Source: Mesaphorura yosii (lineage: Eukaryota > Arthropoda > Collembola > Poduromorpha > Tullbergiidae). Taken from it: a DNA stretch of 64,000 nt. Numbering within the stretch: the stretch's first letter is position 1; every line of letters starts with the position of its first letter. This document shows positions 254 through 62,449 of the stretch, piece by piece. The stretch spans positions 124,001 to 188,000 of the forward strand of contig WIXG01000030.1 of NCBI GenBank assembly GCA_009869945.1, read 5' to 3'. The position numbers and the translations under genes are program-made. The notes under the pieces were generated by a model, which saw only the letters and a list, made by a program, of their open reading frames with translations, did not search any database and was not told where the DNA came from.

Positions 254-868
254 ATGGCTTCACAAACTCAAGGAATTCAGCAGTTGCTTGCAGCGGAGAA
301 AAGAGCAGCTGAAAAGGTTGCTGACGCTCGTAAACGTAAGCCAAGCTTGCCGATATTAAAGTGACCACTGTCAGCAGAAATTTCCACGAACTAGCACTCA
401 AAGGGTATGAATAATTAACTAATTGTGTGTCATTAAATGTAGGCAAGGCGAGAAGATTGAAGCAAGCCAAAGAAGAGGCTCAAGCTGATATCGAGAAATA
501 CAGACAGGAACGTGAAAAGGGCTTCAAGGACTTCGAAGCCAAGGTAAGGCCAAAGACTTTAACCTGTCTTGGCACTCTCTTGGAATTATTCCAACAAACT
601 GAGGATTAACTGAATTTATTCTAGCACATGGGTTCCAAAGAAGATATCGCAACAAAGATCGATGGAGAAGCTACTAGGAAGATTGAAGATATGAAACAAC
701 AAGTAGCTCAGAATAAAGAAAAGGTAAGCATAGCGCCGCGGTCAAATTTCCAAACCAAAACTGATTCACTAAATTCACTAAATTGCGCTTTGGCTGCAGG
801 TTATATCCAGACTCTTGGAACTAGTTTGTGATATCAAGCCAGAACTTCACAAGAATTATCGTCAATAG
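254..868 (+). CDS. V-type proton ATPase subunit G
   Basis: Subunit G is part of the peripheral stator stalk of the V1 sector of the vacuolar proton pump, paired with subunit E. Four exons: 254-335, 443-543, 625-723 and 800-868. They join in phase into 116 residues, close to the usual length of about 117. The N-terminus [19 protein letters not shown] and the following [20 protein letters not shown] match the very conserved G-subunit helix. The rest is a charged coiled coil ([24 protein letters not shown]-like) ending [14 protein letters not shown]. The three introns are 107, 81 and 76 bp with GT-AG ends. The gene converges on the neighbouring decarboxylase gene, with stop codons 181 bp apart. 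The identification is firm. Confidence 0.96.
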
Positions 869-1049: not shown

Positions 1050-2940
1050 TTAGTGTATTTTTGAAATCAAGTCATCAAATTGTTCTCGGTCTCGAATGAA
1101 TTTGTAATTCTCGCCAGTTACTAGAATCTATTGAGAAATGTATGAACATTTAGCTCAGGAATAAGAACCGATTGTGAAAGCAACATACTTCAGCTGGTTT
1201 AGGCCTCATATTATAATTCGATCCCATGGAAGCACCATAAGCACCACAGTCCATTATGGCTAAATACTCTGAGTCAGCAGGCAGTGGCACACCTTTTCCT
1301 AGAAAATCAGCTGACTCGCACACTGGGCCCACCACGTCGAAACTTGTCCACTAGAAAAATGAGCAATAATCTATCCCAAACAACTTTGACGTTTTCGATA
1401 TTTATGACTCGTTTAACCGACCTCCTTTCTGTACTTGAGCTTGGTGGGAAGAATCTGATGAGCGGCTCCGTATAAAGGTGGGCGTATGAGCTCTGTCATC
1501 GCGGCGTCTACAACGGCGTAACTTTTGTTCCCAACCTTCTTTCGACCAAGTACTTTAGTGACGATAATTCCTGCGTTTCCAACCTTCGGAGCAAAACAGA
1601 ATGTCAAAATCTGAAGGTGTACTGAAATACATAACAAGAGAAGAGACCAGCGATCGTCCTGGCTCAATGAGAAGTTTCTTGTTGGGTGGAAGGAAGTTCA
1701 CAATTGTTTTAATGAATTCATCCACACCCGGGGTTCCTCCCTGGTGCATCGTGTCTTCAGAATGTGCCTGAACGTCTCCATTTTTGAAGCCAGGGATCTG
1801 CTTTTTGTAGTCAATGCAGATTCCTCCACCGACGTCGTACAGTTCGATTTCTATGCCTTTGTCGTCTAGCATTTTCGTTGCAGAAGACAGAAAATTTCCC
1901 ATGTACGTGTACACACTCGGGTCACGAATACTACTGCCCAGGTGGCAGTGCAGTCCAATGATTTGAATGTTCTCGCAAAGAGTTAGGATCTTATCAACTT
2001 CGTCGAGTTCATCCAGCCCAAATCCGAATTTCGAATCTTCAGACGTGTTAATGTACGGGTGGACGCCAACATCGCACTCATCAGGTGCCGGGCGAAGGCG
2101 TAGTAATACTTTCACTGATAAAATTCGATGTCAAAAATATTCTGCAAATTTTGTTGTTACTTTCTCGCTAGTAGAAAAATTACCTGTATTTCCTAATCCG
2201 TGGTGAGACGTTATTGTGACCAGGCGTCTGGCATCAAAGATTGAATCTACATTGAGAAGAACGCCTTGCTCGACGGCCAATTTGATTTCCCAGCTAAAGT
2301 GTGGAGAAAGGAATAAACAGCATTCGGTAAGTTGCCAATTTCTGCTAGGCTAGAAAGTACGATTTTTACTCCTGCTTTCCATTTCCATTAAATATAATTT
2401 GTTCTGCTGCGAATCCTGCTTTAAGACCGGTCAGGATTTCATTTCCAGAAACGGTAATCAGAATTTGAACCCCGAAAGATTTCAACAATCGAAGTAACTC
2501 CAAGTTCCCATTTGCTTTTGCGGCGTATCTGTTAGCAAAATTTGCAGCATGTCAGACAGTATGAAGAAGTGGAAAATTTCAGACGAACTCAGAAAAGCCT
2601 TAAATTTTTTAAATGTATGTACCCCAAAGTCCCCTGCGACGAATACTTCTTCATTGCATCCAAGTAAACTCTGCCGTTAGCCTCGATTGCTGCCGCGCTG
2701 TAGATGTACACCGGGGTAGTTGGCACGTCCACAGCAATTCTGTCCAATTAGTCCAATAATGCTTTGTTAAAGCATTAATTCGAAAACCATCGTCAAATTT
2801 CAAGCCGCCGTTTGGTGCACTTACATTGAACGTTCGTTTATATGCGTGTGGTGCGTTTTCTGTGGTAAACAATTGAGAAGGTTCTCAATTGACACATCTT
2901 CACAATACAAGTCTTGCCCTCGGAAATGAAACGCCGTCAT
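1050..2940 (-). CDS. Diaminopimelate decarboxylase (LysA family), intron-bearing animal gene
   Basis: Predicted PLP enzyme converting meso-diaminopimelate to L-lysine and CO2. Eight exons, in transcript order: 2825-2940, 2623-2739, 2370-2528, 2184-2293, 1648-2114, 1422-1583, 1189-1350, 1050-1127. They join in phase into 456 residues (bacterial LysA is about 420). Introns are 61-94 bp, GT-AG. Visible motifs are YAAKAN with the PLP lysine at about K82, VSGNE, FNGNGK, HCHLGS at 223-228, DVGGG at 261-265, EPGRSL at 318-323, GPVCESADFLG with C388/E389, and CGAYGASM with Y415. These are diagnostic of DAP decarboxylase rather than ornithine decarboxylase. The start follows the bacterial pattern (MTAFHFRGQDLYCEDVS). 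Residues 25-42 around the first intron fit the family poorly, so that junction is the least certain. Animals normally lack this pathway, so an old horizontal transfer is inferred. Confidence 0.94.
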
Positions 2941-4009
2941 TCTAATGTTTGTTATCAAAACAAAACGTGTCAGAAACTCTGCGAACAAGAAACATTCAAG
3001 GTCCAGGCCGAATATGAAACTGATAGCAAAACCCATCCTTAACTGGAAATGGACTTGAAATGCCGTTATCAAGCACATGCCAGATCGTATCAAAGCCCTT
3101 GCTGAGTCACATTTCATAATCAACAGTTGCAAAATTGAGTATAGAGTGTTCCACTTTGCACGGCGGCGGCAGAAGAAACCTATTTTCAGGCTCGAAGGCT
3201 CGAGCCAAGAGCTTAGTTCGAATACATTCCAATCAATGATTATGATTACTAAATGCGATGTTCATAAAGAATTTATGATTTATTTCAGTATATTTTTATA
3301 ACACAGTCGACACAATGGCTATAAACTAGTCTACTCTAATTAGTCTGAACCGGTATCATGAAAAATGTGCTGCGAAGCTGTTTACGATGCGATGCGAGGT
3401 TTTCATCACTCATCAGTCGCGAGTCGCATGCACAATGCACCCTAAATTATTCTTTACGTTTACGATGATACAAGAATGCAATGGGGGAAGTTGAGAATTT
3501 CGTGTCTAAATATTGACATTAATTTCTGCTCTCTTCATATGTTTACCCGACACATAACTACACTCTAAAAAAACTTTGGTTGCTTTTCTCCTCTTGCCCA
3601 ATTTATAGAGAAAAATGTTCAGAAGAAATTCTGCGCAAGTTACATTTTAGTCTTACGTGATATGAAGAGTTACAGGATGTAGAATCAAGATTGACTGGTT
3701 AACTACGCGCGCAATTAATCAGTGTAATGATGCTGATGATAGCACCGGAATTGGACAAGAATAATTGATGAGGTGTCTCTCTTATCGCATAAACGAATCA
3801 TTCTCACAATGTTACTATACAATACAATCGTCTACACGACGAACATTGCTTATGCGTTTGCGCTAGCACATTCACTCGCAAGCATCTCTGGCGCCGGCAA
3901 CTGGCATGATCACTTCTTCATTTCTAACAAAATTGATTGAATTCATAATATTTGGTTTACTTGCACAATGCAATTGTTACTTCCGGCACTGTCGGTCTAG
4001 TCTGCTACT
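2941..4009. other. Non-coding gap between the decarboxylase and SWAP70-like genes
   Basis: Contains the promoter and 5' UTR of the decarboxylase gene and the 3' UTR of the SWAP70-like gene, both on the minus strand. No further exon or recognisable motif was found. Confidence 0.5.
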
Positions 4010-7000
4010 CTAAGAAGAGTGATCCATCGGAATGGTTGGCAGATTGTTCGACGGAGGTCTCACGGGAGCCGGATACCGGTATGGGTGACTTTTACCTTCT
4101 CTCATGCTCAGACTCCTTCGCGTGTAGTGATGCACTTTCTCGTCCTCTGCTGAGCTGATTGGTGCGCTGAACAACTTCAGTCTCGTATCCAGGATTTCTC
4201 GATTCCGTTCTACATTCTTTTGTCGAGCTGCCCGCAGTTCCGAGTCCATTTCGCCACGTGTTTTCTCTAAATCTCTAAGCTTACTCTGGGCTTCTAGTTA
4301 GGTGCATTGCACGGAGGGAAAGCGAGACAAACACACACCAGACACGTACGACGCACGGATGGGAAAAAATAAAAAGAAAGCAAATTGTAAACATCAACAA
4401 CAGAACTCAAATCAAGGTGAATCTGAACATTGTGCCCGTAATCGTATTAGAGTAGCGAAGGAAGAATGACATGTTTCGTGTCTCGCTTGGCATGACAGAG
4501 GCCTTTGACGATGAACCACAAAACGATGCACTAACTACTGATATTAGTCAATACTTGCGGTAATTATTTACAAATCTGGTCAGCCCAACTCATTATTGGA
4601 AGCGGGCCTCCGCTGGTAGTAATTAAATCAAGACCCCACCATGTAGTATTTGATTTTGTTGGTTAGACGAGGCACAAAGGATTGCGTGCATTGCATCAAT
4701 CAATCAGTAAATTAATCCGTGTTAGCCGCTTGCTTCGTAGGAATTTCATTAATTATCATAATGATCAATCCTGAGATGCGCATCATGCAAACCCTCTGTC
4801 ATGCAACATAAGACCTGGGTTAGTCGACTGTACAATGCGTTGTAGAAAACAAAGTTAGCACTCCCAGAGTTCCGTGATAAGCGCCCTTGGAGGATCAATG
4901 TGAGTAGAGGATGGATACAGCGAGAGAGAAGTGGTGTTAGTAGTGGGAAGGTGAAGGTGAGGTGAAGAGTTCATCTTCAGAATTTTCTTGCCTTCTAATT
5001 GTCGCTCCATTTCGGTCTGTCTTTTTTCAAATGTCTTGGTCTTATTTCGCTCCATGTCCAGCAGCTTCCTTTGCTCCTGTTGCAGTTTCTCCAACTCTTC
5101 ACGCTTTGTCCACTCTTCGCTCAGGATGCGCGCCTGCAGAGAACGAACCAGCTCCTCGTCGCGTTTGGCCTGGATTTCCTCTGCCAACAGCTTCTCTAGC
5201 TGACATCGTACATCGTCCAAGTGACGACGCTCCTGTTCTTCGATTGCCTTCTGCTGGGCTAATTCTTTCGCATGATTCTCGGCTGCTTTTCTTGCCTGTG
5301 ATTTAGAAATCTCAGCTTAGAATCAGTGTTCTCGTATCTTGCATGAAATGGAAATAACTACAAGCTAATGTATAATGCACTCTGTGGAATGGAACACGCA
5401 ATTCCACATTCGCACGTACAAAGTTGCTTGCGAAAGTGATTAGTTGCAGATCTTAATCCTCGAGAGAAGGACACTTGGTTAGTCATGTCTATTTGAGATT
5501 ATTAATTCTGAACATGAGAACACCACAGACAAGGTTCACAAGACTTTTGACAAGTTATCACACAGAATTATGTCAAGAGACGGAGAAAGCCTTGAGAGCA
5601 GCACAGATGCGGAAGCGTCAGCAAAGAACTCCATGAAGATGAGCTAGTTAATTACAGACTAGCGAGAAAATAAGATCTTTTTATTACACAAGTTTGACAC
5701 AAGAACCAAATGAGCAGACTTCTGAGTGGACTAGGAAGATTCACCGGCTATGGGTTTATCATTACAGTAAGATTGTGAGCAGAGTATAGATTTAGTAGGC
5801 AAGCAAAGGCGGCAGGAGTTACCAGTGACTACGATACGTGAAGACAAGTAGTTTAGGCATGAGAATAAAAGTGGTAAGGAAGTACCATTTTCTCAGCTTG
5901 CAGCAACTCGTTAGCACGGTCAGCTTCGTACTGACGCTTGATCTTAAGTCGATGCCACTCCAAGCGACGTTTGTTCCTCAGGAATCGACCATATGATTCG
6001 CGGCAATGAATTCTGGAGAGAGCCAGCTTGAAGGCAGATATCCATTGAGAACGATATCTGCACAGGACACAAGCAGTGAATTAAATTACTATTCCGGCAC
6101 TGTATTGGTGACTCGATATTTTATGACTACAGGGTGCAGTCCTCACCTTTTGTCCATGGTCGCCAAGTGCAGAACACGATTGGAGGTGGTAATGAAAAAC
6201 TGATGAAATTTAGGATTGGCACTGTCATGGCCCTCCTCAATGCGAGTTTGAGCATCAAAGTGAATGACTTTTGGTTTCTTTGGATTTGTGTAATAAGTCA
6301 GTCCTGAAGAGCGCAGAATGAAGAGTCTCTCGACAAATTTTGGTAAATATTCACCACGCTTCAAGAGTGCTCCCTGAACAAAAGAAAGCATCTTACAGCT
6401 GTTGAGCAGCGACGCAAGTTGCCAGTTGTCAACTGCTACTGAATTTTGTTACCTTCTTTATCGTATCTTCTACGTATTCATCATAAATGTCGTTGATTAT
6501 TTCTTGCATTTCCTCTTTCTGGAAATGTTGAGTGAACTTGACTTCGATGACGGAAAGAAAGGTTTGAAAGTCAAAGATCGCATTCGAAAACAGGCACTGC
6601 AAGAAAAAGACAGGACTCATTTTATTCCATTCCCGAATTTTCACTGAGTCTGAGTCGTGGGCCTACCTCAAAGTCATCTTTCAGTTCCCACTCTTTATTC
6701 AGAGTGGATAGAAACTTTGTAAAAACCAAGTCAGCTTCTTCAGGCGAAATAAGCACCTGCATACAAATGACTGCCTGTGAAATTTGAAAGATATGGAAAT
6801 GCAGGTCTGTGGATTTTTTGCTCATACTTGTGCGTTTCCATCCTCATCCTGGATTAAATCTGCCAGCAGTGAAAAGATGCGAAAAAGCTTGAATCGATTG
6901 TCTTCGTCAAGTACTGGGTCCTTCTTGTTAATATCCAGCTTGGATTTCGTTATATTCCAGCATGCCTCATCGATCGCTTTCTCCAGAGGCGCAAGCTGGG

Positions 7001-7327
7001 CCCGCGTCGTCGCATCGCTCAGCGAGGTGAAGACTTCACGGTTCAGATAGAATTCAAATTGCCCAAAGTTGAGGGTTGAGGAACTGCGAAAGTCGTCGAG
7101 TCCCTTATCAACCCCTTGACAGTCAAGAATCGTTCCCAAGCTGGCTACGAAAACCTGCAACGCAACATTGCTGCATTGTCTGCTCAGTCTTCTGAGCGTG
7201 GACGTGAGAAAATGGCTATGCTTACCCGAAGTTTAGACTTTGGAGCTTCCAACCCATCGTAGTCGGTGAGTGCAAAGAATGCTTGGCAGATGCTATTCTT
7301 CGTGAACTCCAACAGTAAATTTGCCAT
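4010..7327 (-). CDS. SWAP70/DEF6-like protein (EF-hand region, PH domain, coiled coil)
   Basis: This family binds PI(3,4,5)P3, acts in Rho/Rac signalling and binds F-actin. Eight exons: 7226-7327, 6828-7154, 6667-6756, 6453-6596, 6147-6373, 5886-6057, 4992-5295, 4010-4293. They give 549 residues (SWAP70 is about 585). Residues 1-200 follow the family's N-terminal EF-hand-like region (MANLLLEFTKNSICQAFFAL start; DEACWNITKSK). The PH domain spans about 222-315 (GALLKRGEYLPKFVERLFIL to SQWISAFKLALS). A charged coiled coil follows (AENHAKELAQQ, EEIQAKRDEELVRSLQARIL). Exon 7 to exon 8 needs a GC-AG intron (4294-4991) with donor AAG|GCAAG; this restores the coiled coil (RQLEEAQSKLRDLEKTRGE). Without it, exon 7 would read through into an unrelated 29-residue tail. 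The PH domain and domain order make the family call secure; the choice between SWAP70 and DEF6 is open. Confidence 0.92.
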
Positions 7328-26187: not shown

Positions 26188-29064
26188 TTACGATGCCATC
26201 TTCTTGAACATCATCTTGTTGAAAGTAAGTCGATCAATGGTCCCTTTCTCTACAGCCTTCTCCAGTTTGTTAACTTCTCTTTGTTGACGCTTGAAGTTAA
26301 TAAATTCCTTCATGTTCTTTCTGTAGATTTGACGTTCTTGAGACACAAATCTGTTCAATTCGGGTTTCGGCATCAAGACTGCGTTAAACCAGAAGACCAA
26401 CGCAGCGATTGGTGTGGCGGGAAAATCGTAGGATCTGGCTTTAATTCTTAAATTCCTATCGCTGGTGACCACGACAGTCTTTCTGTGTATTCGACGCAAA
26501 CAATCCAGTGCTCTTGCCTTGACATCATTTCCTTCCAGATACCGGCAGGTGTCCACAATTCTTTCATCGTTGCTTAAATTTGGATCAAAGTAGTCATCAT
26601 TCAGGCGATCTAGAACATTCTTGACTCGCAGAACGCGTCCAGTTGATGTGACGATACGGAAATAGTCCAGACGATCCTGAATGTAAGCCAATGCAAGCCG
26701 CGATTTTTCTGCCACCTGGAAGTTTTGATCAATCTTCTGACGTAAGATGTCGAACTTCTCAGCATTCGCAAATCGCGTTTTGATTTTCTCCGGCAGACCT
26801 GGTTTGCACAAACCCTTCAACTCCAGGATTACAGAAACTGGAATGTAGAGTTGATACGCATGGATTGCAAGAAGGGTTTCAACCCACTTCATGTGGCGTA
26901 CAAAACAGTTTGTGTCGATTACGAGTCTTCTAGGATCTACAAGGATCTCCATTGCGTAAGAACGGTTCGAGTGATACAACCAGTCTTCAAACTTCTTCAT
27001 ACTTGCTGTCATTGGTAGAATCATTTGCCCGTGCATGTCAACTTGAACAGATTTAATGTTGTTTGTCTTCCATGAGTTCGAGTCAGATTTTGTTTTGACG
27101 TCTTTCTTTGAAGATCTGGCACCCTTGTTGGGAGATTGTGCTTCAATTTTATTCCTCTTTTCCGGTCGTCGAAGAATTATACGAGCGTTGTTGCAATCAC
27201 CCCTCCAAGCTGATGACGGTGGTCGTCCAGCCTGCTTCGCTTCCGAGGAGGTAGATGCCTTCGGCTTGTTATTTTCGCCTGTATAGAACTGGTAACTATT
27301 TTCATCAACACCTCCTACTTCCTTCTCATCCTCCACTCGGGCCGCCCGAACTAAACTCTTGTATACTTTGGTGTTGCCCAATCCATCCGATATTTCAAAA
27401 ACGTTCCACGACCTTGCAAACGACATGCTACGCTCATGGATGTGTTTCAGACGAGCATAGATCTGAGCTTCTTTGATGCGGTCCACATCCTTGGTGAAGT
27501 ATTCTTTTGACAGAATTGTTGCTCTTTTGAACTCTGTAAACCCAACCAAGTTGGAGCATTCTGAAAGCGGATTGATCTTGATCTTATAGTTCTCACTTTC
27601 TTCTTCGGAGATGGAGGGAAGTGGCATGCCGGCGGAGCGGGGAATGATTACTTCTAACTCTGTCAACAACCTGGCAAATTGCCCGAATGCTTCGTCTTCT
27701 CTTTGCAGTCTGTGACTAAACTTCGTTGTCAATACGTGACGAACGCTGAAAACGGCTCGAGGCCTGCTCTTTCGCCAGTCATCGTGCACTCGCATCCATT
27801 CCAACCAGATAAGAACTCCAATGCTCAGTCCCTCCAGGAGTGGTCTCTTCCATCCATGTATGTGAATTATCGAAGCCAGTTCCTCGCACATCAGACTGAA
27901 CATTTCCATCACAAAATTCATCACTGTGGTTTCGAGGTACACCGACGCCGGAATTAGTTTAGTCTTTTCCTTCGTTAATTGTACAAGGTACATGTTTAAA
28001 GCCATAATTTGAATGATCCTCAAGGCGGGGAACGGGGCTCCCTTCCATCTTGTTATAAGCCCTTCGAAGTATACGAGCGCATCTTCAGAAATGACGTTGA
28101 TGTTGTCCACATCTATACGTGTGTAAAGCTTGCCAATGAAATGGACATACGACAACATGAACCGGTTTAACATTTCTCGGTTCGTCATATCCTTGAAATG
28201 CGTTTCCTTGTTGTGTGGATCTTGGAGGACTTCGGGTATCTTTCCGTGAGCCGCTGTTAATATCCAGGTCTCTTTTCTCGAATGCCCACTCTTGAAATCT
28301 TCGTTGACTTTAGCCTTGCAATACCAGTAATCGCCACGAACTTTTCTGTACTCCCTGTATGCTTCATCATACACATCCACCAGCTCTTCTCGGACGTCTT
28401 CAGGATATTTAGCAAGTTTAGCCCTGGTCAAATAGTATGCTGCTCCGAGCCAATCAAGTTGCTTGCACAATACTGTCCCCATCTGCTTGTAAGCCCTTCC
28501 CTTCCCGGGCGCTATGATTCTTGCACGATCGTACAGCACCATGCTTTTTCTGATCAAACCAGTTTCTGAGTAAGAATATCTTGTGGAATCTCCCATGAGT
28601 GTTAATACCATCGCGTAGCAGTCTTGTGCATAAAGTCCATATGCATTTCTGTTTGTTCCATCTCGGCGAACAAAAATTCCTCGACCAGTGTGATTTTCTT
28701 CGGAAATCTTGTAATCTTGCTCAATCTTCTCCAAGATTTTTTTGAAGTAACTCATTGACTTGGAAACCAGAAAGTCTATGGTGTAGCTGACTTTCGGCTT
28801 ATCGCTTGGGTATTCTTGAATTATCTGTCTTCCAGCAGCTACAAATCTGTACAATGCTGCCTTCCATACGCGATATATGATTCTCTCCGTCACGAAGATG
28901 GATATATCTTTCATAAAAATCTCATCGCTGACCGCTTGAAGCTGACAAATGTGAGGTACTAATTTATCCACTTTGTGAATTGCCGTATGCAAATCAAAAC
29001 GGTTCAAGGCGTCCTCCTCTGTACTGAACTTGTTAAGAAGATATCTCGTCAATGTATCCACCAT
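26188..29064 (-). CDS. SMG6/EST1A-like nonsense-mediated decay endonuclease, intronless
   Basis: SMG6 cleaves premature-stop mRNAs near the termination codon. This is one uninterrupted 958-residue frame. Residues of about 20-250 match the EST1 14-3-3/TPR-like domain (RARIIAPGKGRAYKQMGTVL, then the LGAAYYLTRAKLAKYP block); helical repeats follow. A basic, Ser-rich linker lies at about 600-680. The C-terminal PIN nuclease spans about 700-890, with acidic residues in RLVIDTNCF (about D711), NDERIVD (about 834) and VTSDRNLRIKA (about 868), matching the SMG6 catalytic triad. There is an in-frame TAA 78 bp upstream with no ATG in between, so either translation starts at 29064 or an upstream exon joins. 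Human SMG6 is 1419 residues; the N-terminal exon-junction-complex-binding part is absent from this frame. Confidence 0.94.
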   Translation of the reverse strand: MVDTLTRYLLNKFSTEEDALNRFDLHTAIHKVDKLVPHICQLQAVSDEIFMKDISIFVTERIIYRVWKAALYRFVAAGRQIIQEYPSDKPKVSYTIDFLVSKSMSYFKKILEKIEQDYKISEENHTGRGIFVRRDGTNRNAYGLYAQDCYAMVLTLMGDSTRYSYSETGLIRKSMVLYDRARIIAPGKGRAYKQMGTVLCKQLDWLGAAYYLTRAKLAKYPEDVREELVDVYDEAYREYRKVRGDYWYCKAKVNEDFKSGHSRKETWILTAAHGKIPEVLQDPHNKETHFKDMTNREMLNRFMLSYVHFIGKLYTRIDVDNINVISEDALVYFEGLITRWKGAPFPALRIIQIMALNMYLVQLTKEKTKLIPASVYLETTVMNFVMEMFSLMCEELASIIHIHGWKRPLLEGLSIGVLIWLEWMRVHDDWRKSRPRAVFSVRHVLTTKFSHRLQREDEAFGQFARLLTELEVIIPRSAGMPLPSISEEESENYKIKINPLSECSNLVGFTEFKRATILSKEYFTKDVDRIKEAQIYARLKHIHERSMSFARSWNVFEISDGLGNTKVYKSLVRAARVEDEKEVGGVDENSYQFYTGENNKPKASTSSEAKQAGRPPSSAWRGDCNNARIILRRPEKRNKIEAQSPNKGARSSKKDVKTKSDSNSWKTNNIKSVQVDMHGQMILPMTASMKKFEDWLYHSNRSYAMEILVDPRRLVIDTNCFVRHMKWVETLLAIHAYQLYIPVSVILELKGLCKPGLPEKIKTRFANAEKFDILRQKIDQNFQVAEKSRLALAYIQDRLDYFRIVTSTGRVLRVKNVLDRLNDDYFDPNLSNDERIVDTCRYLEGNDVKARALDCLRRIHRKTVVVTSDRNLRIKARSYDFPATPIAALVFWFNAVLMPKPELNRFVSQERQIYRKNMKEFINFKRQQREVNKLEKAVEKGTIDRLTFNKMMFKKMAS

Positions 29065-30247
29065 TATGGCCAGCAGTCTTTGACCAGGTGATAAGAAGGC
29101 AGATAATCTAGATAGACAATGTAAGCTTAAGCGCTCTATTTCTTAGGGTTTAAATTATTCAAATTTAATATTGACTTACAATCACGTGAAGAATGGCCAC
29201 ACCACAAAGCTTAATCAGTCTGGAAGGTTATCACTTTAGTTGTCATTGGATTTACCTAATCTAAGCAAAATAACAAAACAAGTTGATCAGAACACAAGTG
29301 GTTTTGTATGTATCAAGTTGTCCTAATTTGAAACGTATGAACGTACCAACTACTATGAATGAAATGAAACTGGTCAATGCGGTCAATACACTACACGGAA
29401 TACAAGAATCTTGAGAGTAGTTACTCTCAGTCAGTCAATGCGGAGTAATCTAAGGAAAATGAGATGATTCATTAAAGCGATGTGAGTAAATAGTATGATG
29501 TTATATTTGTTAGTATTTCGAATACCAACGTACCACTAGAACAATTGAGTTCCTTAAATTCACCTTAAAGCGATGGTTCACAGCAAGGAAAGTATTCATA
29601 TTCAAAATAATTTAGGAGTTACAAATAGATGATATCAGAAGCAGAACAATCTGAAAAGGTCATAGAGTTTGCAAGATCAAGAGTAGGCAATTATTCGCTA
29701 ATTTGTAATCAAAATTCAACTTACCACTCCGATCCTTCAAGCTAATCGTGATAATCAAAGATCCTCAAGCCGAATTGTCGAACTTCCAGCCGGAATGACC
29801 AAAATGGACATGAGCTAGAAGAAAATGACCTGTGAGTGAAATGCAGCTGACTTTGGCTTCGAGTTTCAATCTTCGAGTACACGTGTCTTATATGAGAATT
29901 GCGGAAAACGAACAAGAGGCTTCCTAGCATCAAAACCATTAACAAAGACATTTCCTTACCCGGAACTCAGGGATGAAATGTGATCGAATGATGATGAATG
30001 AAAAATTGAATTTGTACAGCGAATTCCTCATTTTTATTTTAATATCATTTGATTAAGGACGGGTGCGACAAATTTGAGGCTTGCAAAATAGAATGATCGC
30101 TGAAAATGCAGACAACATTGAAGGCTCAAGCGAAAAGTACAAAGAAATGGAATTTCGTAAATTAAAAACGCTTTATTTGCATAACATCCTTCCTCCTTTA
30201 CAAAATCGTAGCTCCAAATTAAAGCAGTTACAAATTGATCAGTTCGT
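29065..30247. other. Gap between the SMG6-like and ERAL1 genes
   Basis: Contains the upstream region of the SMG6-like gene and the ERAL1 3' UTR. An 18-nt perfect palindrome with a 2-nt centre (29412-29429) overlaps a TCAGTCAGTC word. No coding exon was recognised; an N-terminal SMG6 exon could be hidden here but I cannot support one. Confidence 0.4.
30172..30177 (-). terminator. poly(A) signal (AATAAA) of ERAL1
   Basis: TTTATT on the plus strand, about 70 bp past the ERAL1 stop codon at 30248. Confidence 0.6.
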
Positions 30248-56822: not shown

Positions 56823-59800
56823 TTATGATGGTGAGAAAAGATTCCATAAAATTTTCAGAGTTTCTTGACACATAACGAGTCTTTTATCGGGAAATTCACA
56901 AAGTTTCTGCAGTGTTGAAATGTAGCGACACAGAGTCGATTCGATGCTTGAAAAGTGAAGTCTGATTCTTTCATTTTCTTCATTAATTAGCCATTGTTTA
57001 TACGTCTGAAATTTGGAGTCAAGTTCCTTCACTTCTTTCTGTGCCTTTGCACCCATTCCTCGTCTATTTTTAGTCGCAGTCGAAGGACCGTCAGCTCCGT
57101 GACTTTGGTCGCTTAACTGGCCATAAAGCGGCCAGTCATTTATGCAGGCGTCACATTCACACTTGAAAAAGTAGTTGGATAGTAGCCGTTGTTGTCTCTC
57201 TTGTTTGAAATGGAACAAGTAGAACCAACCGTACGAGTCCAGGATTTGCTGGCCTTGAGAGATTTCCAAGATTGATTTGACGACGCACAGCTTACCAATA
57301 TTATAGCGATACACGTTGGGATTACAGCTGTGATTAGTTAAGCTAACAGTCGGTAAACTGCAGCCACCAATTTCTGTTGTCTCCATGTGCATGGCCTTCG
57401 ACGCAGCTTTGTCCACAAAATTAATTTCGTACGCATTACTCGACGTGCTTTGCAAATGTCTGAAGAGTAGAATGGTAATTCGTAACTCCGCGTCTGACAT
57501 TTCTATTTGACTTGCAGCTGTCGGCTCCGTTGTTGAATTGTCAGGCACGGGTGCGGTCGTACGATCATCAATTTCATTTTGACGTACTTCAGTCTTAACG
57601 AGGGTTGTCATTGATGAGTCGATATCAAGATTGCTTTCGGTCGCTGGAGAGAACTGACATTTCGATGAGGAAGACTGATGATAATCAAAAAATCCAGTGA
57701 AGCGGAGACAAAGCGCGAGGTAAATGGCTGCGAGAATGCGTTTTAGAATATCACCCGGAGGTCTCGCATCCGTGTTTGTGGTTTGTGCGAGCACGGACTC
57801 GTAGTCGCTGGGATCGAGCTCTCCAGCAGAATTCAGTCCCAAACTTCTCCATGCTGCTGGCTTCTTGTTTATTTCAGACCGTGAGGAATCATCCTCTGGC
57901 GATGAATTTTGACTTCGGCAGTTACTTCCAATCGCATCGTTTTCTTTTCCAATGGTATTAGCAATTCCATCTCCAGCTTCCACCATTGACGCTGCCGCCA
58001 CTTCAAAGTTATGGCTTGCAATTTTCTTCCGGTGCCATTGTTTCTGAAGAAGGATCGCCAACGGAGTGCTGGTAATGGTCCGATAGCATAGAAGAGCCAT
58101 TTCTCCTAATGCCGCCGAATTCAGCAAGAGTTTGAGGATGGGACACTCGAATTTGTGTACGGAATCGGCTTCCCGCTTGCAGTCCCAACTGCAAAATACG
58201 ACCTAGATCATCAACATTATAACAAACCATCAATAATCATCCGAGTATGCATGCCACGGATATGCAAAATTCATTATTCATACTTAGAAAGGGAGGCTGG
58301 AGCAAATGGAAGGGAATGGCACTGGAAAAGGTAGAAATTTGGAATGGCGCTAAAAAGTTTCGGGGCAGTTTGTTATTCTGACAGCTCGTATTCATAGTGC
58401 AATTTTATCGCACGAAATCATTGGAAGCTGGCCGGACAGAGGAGCGTTTTATATGTTCAAGGTAATGAAGAGGTCAAAGAGCAAACCGATTAAGACAAAA
58501 AGGAGTGGGTTGGATTTGAGCATGGCGACTGGGAGTTAGACAGCAAATCGTGGAGGCCTGTCCGAATTATTCTTCAAGTGCCATTATAAATATTAAGTAG
58601 CGACGTTCTAACTATGACTCGGAGCGAGGCAAGCGCGCAGCAGTAAAGAATGTATTTGACGTACCGCTGAACAGCGTTGGCACGGAACCCAACTTTTGGC
58701 TTTTTTACAGCATTGCTGACAAAAATCTCCGTACATATTTGGATACAGTGACCATGCATACGGAGACTCCAAAATCAGAGTTTCGCCTAGACAGCATAAA
58801 ATAAAAAATAAAGAAAATTGAACATTCCTTTGCGACTAGGAACGGAGTGCAGCCATGCCAGGCAGTGGTGGAGCGAAAGTCATTTGTCTTATAGTTGCGT
58901 GGAAAGGGGTACAGGATCATTGTCATTATAATAAAATATAGCCGGTCTTCACAGCGAACAACCACTACACGTTGAACCAAAAATGTGAAAATGGAATTTC
59001 GGTATTTTGGCTTGTTCCAGAACTTGTGTCCTGTGTGAAAGTATACAACTTCCCAGACAAGACGCTCTCCACGATTCCCAGATGACGACTTGGCGCTAAT
59101 AATATCTCATTTCGCTGCTTGGACGTTAAGTGCAAAAATGTGCAGACTTCAGGCACTAAAGAAGTCGACGGCTGAATGGAAACGAGAGAATAAAAAGAAA
59201 TATATTGCGGTATCATAAATATAAACAGATAGTAGTGGACATAAAATTCTGAAGGCTCCTGCCTCAACTCCTTGGCTCCTCGTTCCACGCCAAGTGTTAA
59301 TAAGTTATCCTTTAGAATAATACAATACAATAACTTTGTTTGTCTGGTCAGCTTCGTGTTTTGCCAAGAAATCTCGTGTTACTTTGCGAAGTGTAAGGCG
59401 ATGAAATTAAATGACCTGACCTGGAGGAATTGTTTTCTTAGCAATGATATGCCGGCCAAACTGCTGATTGTACTCGAGTTGCAGAGCATCTGAAGCAGCG
59501 ATCATCTGCCGACCTGGGCCGCAGTAAAGTTTCATGGATTCAAGACTATTGCTTTTGCTTTGATCGCAGGAATGTGCGGATAGCGGTGACTGCGAGCTGA
59601 GATCAATTGCTGGCTGTACGTTTTCCCTCGAGGTGTACGACGAGCAAGAAGTCTCATGTTTCGTTCCCATGAAAATAGCAATCTCATTCATCTCTCCTCC
59701 TTTGTCTCTTGCTGGACTGCCGTTTTCACCGTCATCATCTATTCGATTCATTGATTTGATTTCTTTGAGTTGTTTTACAATTTGTAAAGTCAATTCGGAC

Positions 59801-60822
59801 TTTCGTTGGTTTGTCCACGCAGACATTCTCAGCATGTCGATGGAATGTTGGAGGATGCGGTAGGCTTGTGAAAGACGACCCAGCTCCTTGTAGTTGGCCG
59901 CTAAACCATACACCATTTCAAACGTCTTTTCAGCACCGTAGTAAATGGATGTGAAAATGTCCAATATACATGATACATGGTCGCCCGTATAATTGAAACG
60001 ACGAGCTCTTTCCCGATAAATCTCAGCTAGCAACTTGTCTTTCGCTCCGTGGTTGTTGCTTTTGTGATCCCGAACACTTCGAGCCTCTTGTTCTGCTTCC
60101 TGCTGTGGCTGTTGCTGCTCTTGTGGAGTCGCGATGCCAAGAAACCATTCGAGGCACAGTTTATCATGGGTCAATTTCCCGTTCCAATCTTGGTCTGATC
60201 TTTTCATCCCGGGCTGCTGGACCGGGGCTAGGAGCAAAGCGTTATTTAGAACTTTTATTGTCTTGTTCTCTTCATTTCCCATTGACTCTGCTAACAAAAG
60301 CAATTCCTTTGCTCTCCACTCATCCTTCCCATCATAAAACTCCTGAATCGAATTTGTAAATTTCGACAAGATTGAAGGAGAATACGAAATTACGAGTTGA
60401 ATGCGTTTCAAATCGCCTTCATCATTCTCTTCCGCGTCGCCAACTGCACGATCACTGCTCCGTTGCCCACAAGTCTTCAGTTTCTCACATAAATCGATGG
60501 ATTTTCCATTTTTCTTCAGCTCGGCACAAATTTCCCCGTACAACTCATCAAATCTTTTCACTCTCTGCTCTGTCGATTTCCTCTCACGTTGCTGGTCGCT
60601 TTGAGTACCTCCATCATCATTTGTGCAAGACATAACTGTCGGTTTGCCTGAGCTTCTCCCTCTGTACTCTTCGTTCGATGAGGAATTGCTTTCCGAGATT
60701 TCACTGCCATAATTATTGAGTAACTTCACCTCGACGTGCCCATCAGTAGAGGCCATATCCTTTGCAACAACGGATGGGCAGAGTGGTTGAACCAAGAACA
60801 GTGTCTGTCGTGTCAGATTCAC
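56823..60822 (-). CDS. SMYD4-like SET and MYND domain protein
   Basis: SMYD4 proteins are putative lysine methyltransferases with TPR, MYND and split SET domains. Three exons: 59421-60822, 58665-58786, 56823-58202. They give 967 residues (human SMYD4 has 804). The N-terminal half has helical TPR-like sequence (YGLAANYKELGRLSQAYRIL) and acidic, Gln-rich inserts. The SET domain starts at GRHIIAKKTIPPG, joined to ETLILESPYAWSLYP by splicing. MYND zinc ligands are C490, C493, C503, C506, C512, C516, H524 and C528. The SET core motif TNHSCNPN lies near residue 804, followed by QGQQILDSYG and post-SET CECDAC. A second in-frame ATG (MASTDGHVEV), 22 codons in, could be the real start. A long Ser/Asp-rich insert separates MYND from the SET core. 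Confidence 0.93.
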
Positions 60823-62449
60823 GTAAAACGAGAAGACTCACTTCTCGTGTTGAACAGAGTAACGACGAGATGGGTTGTGCTACTCGTTTTTCGTCAAAAC
60901 AAATTAAATGAAACACGAAACCAGCGATTTTCACCTCCAGTTTCACGGCCACAAGATTGAACCGCTGTTTGGAAACTAGTCCGTAATGACGAGACAGTGC
61001 TTGACGACTGAACACCCGGCAGAATCCAGGCGTATTAGAGACATTGTACTAAGAGAATCAAACTTTAAAAATAGAACTGAGCCAAAGAAACATTGTCTGT
61101 CTCTTAAAGCAGGCACAGATTCGTAAACAATTCTGGACTGCAAATACTGCGATGAAAGATATGAGGGCATGAGCGTCGTTTCGTATGAAATATAAAAAAC
61201 ACACAACAAACACATATTCTTTATGGCAAACTTGCGATTTATTAAAATGACTAAAATAGAGTCCACACTTCAAACAACCTGATTCTGACAATTTGTTTTT
61301 CTACCCACAAATCTATTAAGTAGTCCAATTTTAACGCGCACTCCAATCGCTACTTGACATTCCGTATATTTCAGGTCGTCACACAATTCCAAATTGCACT
61401 TGGACAATTTCATTACACAGTTCATAAATAAAGCGTTTGTGACTGAAATCGGCGTACATTTAGCTTATAAAGACTTGGAGAACATCCAACACAATTGGAC
61501 ACAAAAAGACTCTTGCACAAACCTTGCGTTGGTTAGCTCTGTGCAGATTCGAATACCATTAACCAAATTGGGACACACGCAAGAAATAAAAATATTCAGT
61601 CTCTAAAATCATGAACGGTTTAATAGAGCGTTTACTCTTCGCTATGTGTGACGTACCCTTCACAAGCCGGTTTAAAATTATCATAGATTCTACGTAAGCG
61701 GAGACAAAACTAAAGGAATTTCCTGTTCTGGTCTCCAAAGTTATAGCGTTTGACCAATCTCACTCAATTTCACAATCTCATTATATTATTCTATTACGAA
61801 AAGTTTAAAAATACCACCCTTCAACTTTTGCCTAAAATAGAACGTGGCGCTCTGTAAGTACATTTCTTAGTATCTAAAATAATGAAGCGAAAATGGCACC
61901 CAATTATGGTGAATTGCATAGTTCGAATTCGATCTACCGCCTGAAAATTTTTCTATCACGTTATTCTGAGACAGAAAAAACGAATTCGAATCTTTGCTGA
62001 ATATGTTCAACGAACTAGCTACAAAAGTTTCCATAGTCGTATAAAACAGGTTCAGCATTCAGACTACGAGTTTCAATGCATTACACTAAAATCAGTCATT
62101 TCAGTAAGAGAAGTAAAATAGTTGAACTTCATCTCTGAAGGGTCTTCTAAATGTTCCTGCATGCAAGCTTGTAACGAAATGTTGCAACAACTTCTTTTGG
62201 TTAAATAGCACAGTTAGAGAAGGGAACTAGAAACGTAACACTTCACACGAAGTATAAAATACTGCTGTATTTGTAATACAGGGTTTCTAAAAAAATGGAA
62301 GGATGACGCATTCAAAAGGACGATAAAAAACCACGACCAAAAATGTTTAACTGTCGAGAACTGTCGCAGCTTTCATTATGTTCACCCATCTGTAAAATAA
62401 AAGTTGAAACTTAGGCTTGAAGGTACAGCAATGGGTCTCAGATCTATTT
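60823..62449. other. 1.6 kb gap between the SMYD4-like and FGD-type genes
   Basis: Promoter side of the SMYD4-like gene and 3' UTR side of the FGD-type gene. No coding exon was recognised. AATTGCACTTGG at 61392-61403 resembles the miR-92 seed but shows no hairpin partner. Confidence 0.45.

Follow-up and report, generated by a model that had tools for sequence, protein, structure and literature searches.

According to the textbook view, animals are unable to make lysine. What, then, is a gene of the diaminopimelate decarboxylase (LysA) type doing among ordinary animal genes, how did it get there, and on what might its product act? The gene in question occupies positions 1050–2940 of the stretch of DNA analysed here (64,000 nucleotides; hereafter, the window), which belongs to a contig of 372,122 bases in a 93 Mb assembly of 1127 contigs. 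The answer we favour, with a probability of roughly 0.6, is an old horizontally acquired nuclear LysA making L-lysine from ready-made meso-diaminopimelate (meso-DAP) that comes from outside. Within this answer, transfer rather than vertical descent is something we infer, and the same holds for transcription, catalytic activity, the source of the substrate and the benefit.

Structure and chromosomal setting of the gene

The initial annotation described eight exons joining in phase, and this description was borne out: the eight minus-strand exons join in frame into a product of 456 aa without a single internal stop. All seven introns are of the GT–AG type, measure 61–94 bp each and have phases 2, 2, 2, 1, 0, 0 and 0. 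Exon 1 (2825..2940), with the start codon at 2938–2940, encodes an N-terminus akin to that of Poribacteria LysA, while exons 2 (2623..2739) and 4 (2184..2293) were placed by exon joins and alignment. The motifs YAAKAN (with the PLP lysine) and FNGNGK are found in exon 3 (2370..2528); HCHLGS, GGG and EPGRSL in exon 5 (1648..2114), which also gave the PF02784 match in the genome profile search; LIRPPLY in exon 6 (1422..1583); and CESADFLG and GAYG in exon 7 (1189..1350). Except for FNGNGK and LIRPPLY, these are the motifs on which the original call had rested, and the alignment recovered every one of them. Exon 8 (1050..1127) ends in the stop codon at 1050–1052. An AATAAA at 1003–1008 of the same strand, 41 bases beyond the stop codon, is likely the gene's own polyadenylation signal, as had been proposed.

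The donors of introns 5 and 6 are weak (GTCTCT and GTCGGT); splicing these introns brings conserved LysA sequence back (EPGRSL/VGNAG and RKE/WTSFDVVGP, respectively). The least certain part of the gene model, and its weakest point, is the join between exons 1 and 2, where 19 residues are absent from both aligned Poribacteria LysA. The donor at this join is GTAAGT, which we take to be the nearest to the usual donor consensus among the seven introns.

On one side, lysA is tail to tail with a four-exon gene for V-ATPase subunit G on the plus strand (254..868; PF03179, 6.8e-38; 6wlz, subunit G 1, 1e-35), leaving 181 bp between the stop codons. The exon ends of this neighbour were read by eye, as were its introns of ~76–106 bp. 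On the other side, ~2 kb upstream of lysA and on the same strand, there is a SWAP70/DEF6-like gene with an approximate span of 4855..7232, composed of coiled-coil, PH and N-terminal EF-hand pieces. Its matches are below the Pfam cut-offs (PF25530 EF-hand_SWAP70_N, 24.6 bits against 27; PF00169 PH, 20.3 bits against 25.1), and the coiled-coil piece, without any Pfam match, presumably belongs to the same gene. The GC3 of lysA is 0.464, as compared to 0.468 in four window ORFs; its codon use correlates with that of these ORFs at 0.80, where a Poribacteria lysA reaches 0.70 and a Ruminococcus gene 0.38. In the assembly as a whole, a profile search located Chitin_bind_4 at 66 places, for which reason the host is probably an arthropod or a close relative. 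The nematode cuticle collagen domain (Col_cuticle_N) gave no match; this speaks against a nematode but does not amount to absence, as the search was positive in none of its controls. Searches for a tardigrade CAHS protein, of little weight for want of a positive control, and for COX1 likewise had no match. Introns and animal genes on both sides show that lysA is integrated in the host chromosome. The earlier idea that the introns were gained in the host fits well with their host-like appearance, the codon use and the animal neighbours.

Two other parts of the window deserve a comment. At 26191–29142 there is an intronless open frame of 984 aa with PIN and Est1 DNA/RNA-binding domains, SMG5/6-like, which contrasts with the several short introns of lysA and the V-ATPase G gene. 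At 56826–60837, two long open frames of 459 and 476 aa were found; the first has a SET-domain match and a SMYD-like look, and the second has no Pfam match.

Family identity and possible donors

The window protein scores 341.9 bits (E 3.9e-102) against TIGR01048, the curated LysA equivalog model, with a cut-off of 297.9, and both domains of fold-type III decarboxylases are above their cut-offs (PF02784, 1.1e-34; PF00278, 4.6e-20). Six other decarboxylase models were matched, all far under their cut-offs; the scores were 146.6 bits against 700 for DokD (ornithine/lysine decarboxylase), 85 against 500 for FslC (N-citrylornithine decarboxylase) and 32.5 against 624.1 for speA. Among solved structures, the best matches were LysA chains: 2p3e with 239.2 bits and two from Arabidopsis with 238.8 and 235.9 bits. 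Solved D-ornithine/D-lysine decarboxylases reached at most 95.4 bits, a lysine/ornithine decarboxylase 34.8 bits, and chains named ornithine decarboxylase no more than 31.5 bits. The initial annotation had named an animal ornithine or arginine decarboxylase as the identity that would overturn its call; with LysA this far ahead of both the ornithine decarboxylase chains and speA, we rejected this identity and retained diaminopimelate decarboxylase. Judging from these scores, the window gene is LysA-type rather than an ornithine or arginine decarboxylase of the usual kind.

In the alignment, the window protein is 39% identical to Aquifex LysA and 41% to Arabidopsis LysA, and the PLP lysine, HCHxGS, GGG, EPGR, CE(S/T) and GAY motifs are conserved among the three. 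Catalytic roles are assigned to these motifs in LysA enzymes. The window protein also has an insert after GGGICIDY and an extra N-terminal loop.

Bacterial relatives were collected by scanning genome contigs with two peptide patterns, which gave at least 592 stretches. Only the best 80 of at least 581 relatives were compared, so nearer bacterial kin may exist. Three trees were considered: one with 42 rows, made up of 32 loci from the 80, three plasmid loci and seven named rows; one with 31 rows, including 27 loci from the 80; and a quick tree with all 80. They were built without Chlamydiae, and Arabidopsis was the only eukaryotic LysA beside the host genes. In the 42-row tree, the window LysA grouped with Arabidopsis and four Poribacteria (100/99), and this grouping was kept in the 31-row and 80-locus trees. 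Clades uniting the window LysA with Arabidopsis alone or with Poribacteria alone were both rejected in the 31-row tree (AU p 0.0001 and p 0.0002, respectively). Such a topology suggests that the window LysA stands outside both, with long branches meeting there; its own end branch, in changes per column, measures 1.27 in the 42-row tree, 1.47 in the 31-row tree and 2.29 in the 80-locus tree. In terms of raw score, Arabidopsis LysA comes no closer to the window LysA than that of Aquifex (238.8 vs. 239.2 bits), and two Poribacteria loci, L037 and L012, were the top scorers among the best 80 (271 and 270 bits).

The Arabidopsis enzymes DAPDC1 and DAPDC2 (6n2a and 6n2f), of which DAPDC1 is the 41% identical one, share FNGNGK and FDVVGPVCESADFLGK with the window LysA. 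Their solved chains are named chloroplastic, whereas the window LysA starts approximately as bacterial LysA do, without a long N-terminal extension. The Poribacteria genes (L012, L014, L015 and L037) resemble it in having NGNGK (four of four) and LYCE near the N-terminus; however, they are intronless and their products are only 36–37% identical to it (BLAST). Among the best 80 of at least 581 bacterial relatives, NGNGK was present in these four loci only, CESxDFLGK in seven and LYCE in 26. We considered NGNGK as a mark of the donor and dropped it, since Thermotoga LysA has it too. Viral contigs gave 33 pattern matches and no LysA relatives among them; plasmid records gave 252, with identities to the window LysA of at most 36.3% among the best 25 listed. 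The plant likeness pointed out at the outset is therefore half right: the trees do place the window LysA with Arabidopsis and Poribacteria, but a clade with Arabidopsis is rejected, the branches are long and NGNGK is not confined to this group. The donor would be either a bacterium or an alga of the Arabidopsis/Poribacteria type.

As a side observation, Poribacteria and Arabidopsis LysA form a clade of their own in the 31-row tree (100/99), which may bear on the origin of the plant enzyme.

Other lysine genes and the proposed role

A search of the same genome for other lysine genes had been suggested by the initial annotation. Our search covered asd, dapA, dapB and dapF, leaving out lysC, dapD, dapE and dapL; it was a six-frame profile search in which only the best candidates were scored, exon by exon, so that very short exons can be missed. 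No place in the genome matched dapF (PF01678), dapB (PF01113) or asd (PF02774), while the same searches were positive in 9, 12 and 14 of the 14 control genomes, respectively, all of them prokaryotes. The dapA family (PF00701, DHDPS) was represented by one exon, coming from a HOGA1-like gene: among solved structures it matched HOGA1 at 5.5e-50 and the best dihydrodipicolinate synthase chain at 1e-22, so we rejected it as a true dapA. Thus, the genome search did not recover a complete DAP pathway in the host: asd, dapB and dapF gave no hits, and the one dapA-family hit is not a true dapA.

Since none of the searched DAP-making steps was found, the substrate of LysA would be ready-made meso-DAP from outside. 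If the pathway is indeed missing, the bacterial cell wall would be its obvious source. Two families able to cut peptidoglycan are present in the genome, namely Destabilase (i-type lysozyme), at five places, and Amidase_2, at two. An NlpC/P60 endopeptidase was not found by the profile search, so that any release of free DAP from peptides is conjectural here. The scenario we favour may then be put as follows. The lysA gene would have entered the genome by an old horizontal transfer, with time since then to obtain seven introns of host type, a poly(A) signal and codon use like that of the host. Its product would bind PLP at the YAAKAN lysine and strip the D-side carboxyl group from meso-DAP, yielding L-lysine; the meso-DAP itself would come either from the breakdown of bacterial peptidoglycan or from resident bacteria.

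The PF02784 profile search of the genome gave nine places. Those on contigs C1002, C860 and C471 we take, by their motifs, to be ornithine decarboxylase-like, and the one on contig C255 belongs to a second LysA-family gene. This gene (C255:99938–101616, or 1411–3089 of locus L005) consists of six exons separated by GT–AG introns of 67–88 bp and encodes, in frame, 432 residues. Against TIGR01048 it scores 268.1 bits, below the LysA cut-off of 297.9. It is of another bacterial type than the window gene, with CENNDK and GAHG. The comparison of this gene was confined to plasmid records (the best 25 of 165 matching) and solved structures, and its best plasmid match among those listed was Ruminococcus albus, with 46%. 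In the 42-row tree, it groups with genes from Ruminococcus, Agrobacterium and Nonomuraea (100/100), apart from the window gene; this tree carries a long-branch warning between the C255/Ruminococcus group and Thermotoga. Its flanks are animal-like (TM2, lipase and a sodium/hydrogen exchanger). On the evidence of sequence, the simplest reading is that the window and C255 genes represent two separate acquisitions. It is tempting to go further and suppose two captures of the terminal lysine enzyme from different donors, with the pair salvaging cell-wall meso-DAP into L-lysine; we regard this as possible, though doubtful. If it were true, an essential amino acid would become partly dispensable without a symbiont's pathway.

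Near the second gene, at 192–1318 of locus L095 (C255), there are open frames that presumably resemble a transposase-derived DDE protein; one of them, a piece of 169 aa, has no Pfam match.

Several other explanations have to be weighed against the favoured one. A symbiont might make DAP and leave it to the host LysA to finish lysine, as in whiteflies. The published work on whiteflies, whose dapF and lysA make up for genes that Portiera lacks, speaks for such a shared pathway, as does the absence of hits for dapB and dapF in the host, which points to DAP from outside the nuclear genome; even so, we consider it unlikely here. The enzyme might also be intact but act on another substrate (a D-amino acid, an ornithine-like compound or a detoxification target), lysine not being its main product. 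The long end branch and the insert after GGGICIDY could reflect a shifted substrate of this kind; the extra N-terminal loop and the C255 gene falling below the LysA cut-off point the same way. However, the LysA motifs are retained, the equivalog cut-off of TIGR01048 is passed and the DokD and FslC models are failed, which makes this explanation, in our opinion, quite unlikely.

The host lysA might also go back to a holozoan ancestor, most other animals having lost the gene; choanoflagellates possess DAP-pathway genes (PMC7971027) and an anthozoan DAP decarboxylase has been reported (PMC4878875). Nevertheless, such vertical inheritance requires many losses, and both papers call these very genes candidates for horizontal transfer, so we find it improbable. 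As to contamination, or a chimeric assembly with algal or bacterial DNA, plants and bacteria ordinarily possess LysA, and both are common food. Against it stand the seven introns, similar in size to those of the V-ATPase G gene, and animal genes at a distance of 181 bp on one side and ~2 kb on the other. Given these flanks, the host-like codon use and the AATAAA, contamination seems to us very improbable indeed.

Comparison with known systems

Acquired lysA genes occur in mealybugs and psyllids as well as in whiteflies. The best-described case is that of Bemisia tabaci, which, like the present one, combines a LysA of foreign origin, an arthropod nucleus and the final step of lysine synthesis (PMC4607527, PMC8659303). 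According to the published passages, the acquired lysine-synthesis genes of whiteflies rescue E. coli mutants, and silencing of lysA lowers lysine (PMC8659303). In Bemisia tabaci, lysA is accompanied by acquired dapB and dapF and works with bacteriocyte symbionts (PMC4607527), whereas in our host the genome search recovered none of asd, dapB, dapF or a true dapA. The groupings differ as well: the window LysA groups with Arabidopsis and Poribacteria, and whitefly lysA, according to the published account, clusters with Isosphaera (Planctomycetes) (PMC4607527). In scale insects, transferred genes are reported to be enriched for lysine metabolism, without the gene being named.

The initial annotation confined acquired lysA to a few sap-feeding insects, which is correct for whiteflies and incomplete otherwise, since such a gene is reported from a coral too (PMC4878875). 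This is Seriatopora_29443, an anthozoan diaminopimelate decarboxylase listed as a transfer from chlorophyll c-containing algae; it resembles the window gene as a LysA in an animal outside the sap-feeding insects, albeit from another phylum and likened by description (PMC4878875). A transcript that varies between habitats in the transcriptome of a crab, Helice tientsinensis, bears the name "thetaiotaomicron diaminopimelate decarboxylase (LYSA)"; the passage does not state whether it originates from the crab or a gut bacterium, and the comparison is by name only (PMC12070891). By this name, our guess is that the window gene is less close to it than the type found on C255, and such genes may be wider in crustaceans. 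Neither an ant survey nor a paper on a trombidid mite names lysA, and the main text of a metazoan transfer compendium does not name it either.

A literature search of limited depth found no published account of an arthropod-like host in which a lone lysA is joined by another gene of the LysA family. Thus, acquired animal lysA is already known, and what appears to be new here, as read from the sequences, is a lone lysA plus the distantly related LysA-family gene on C255. If a small genome has two unlike LysA-family genes, selection would seem to have favoured the same reaction more than once. Overall, if LysA is old and intact here while the upstream steps are missing, one transferred enzyme can be kept for its own sake, fed by bacterial cell walls. 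Such salvage would represent a simple nutritional form, unlike the joint pathways that sap-feeding insects run with their symbionts.
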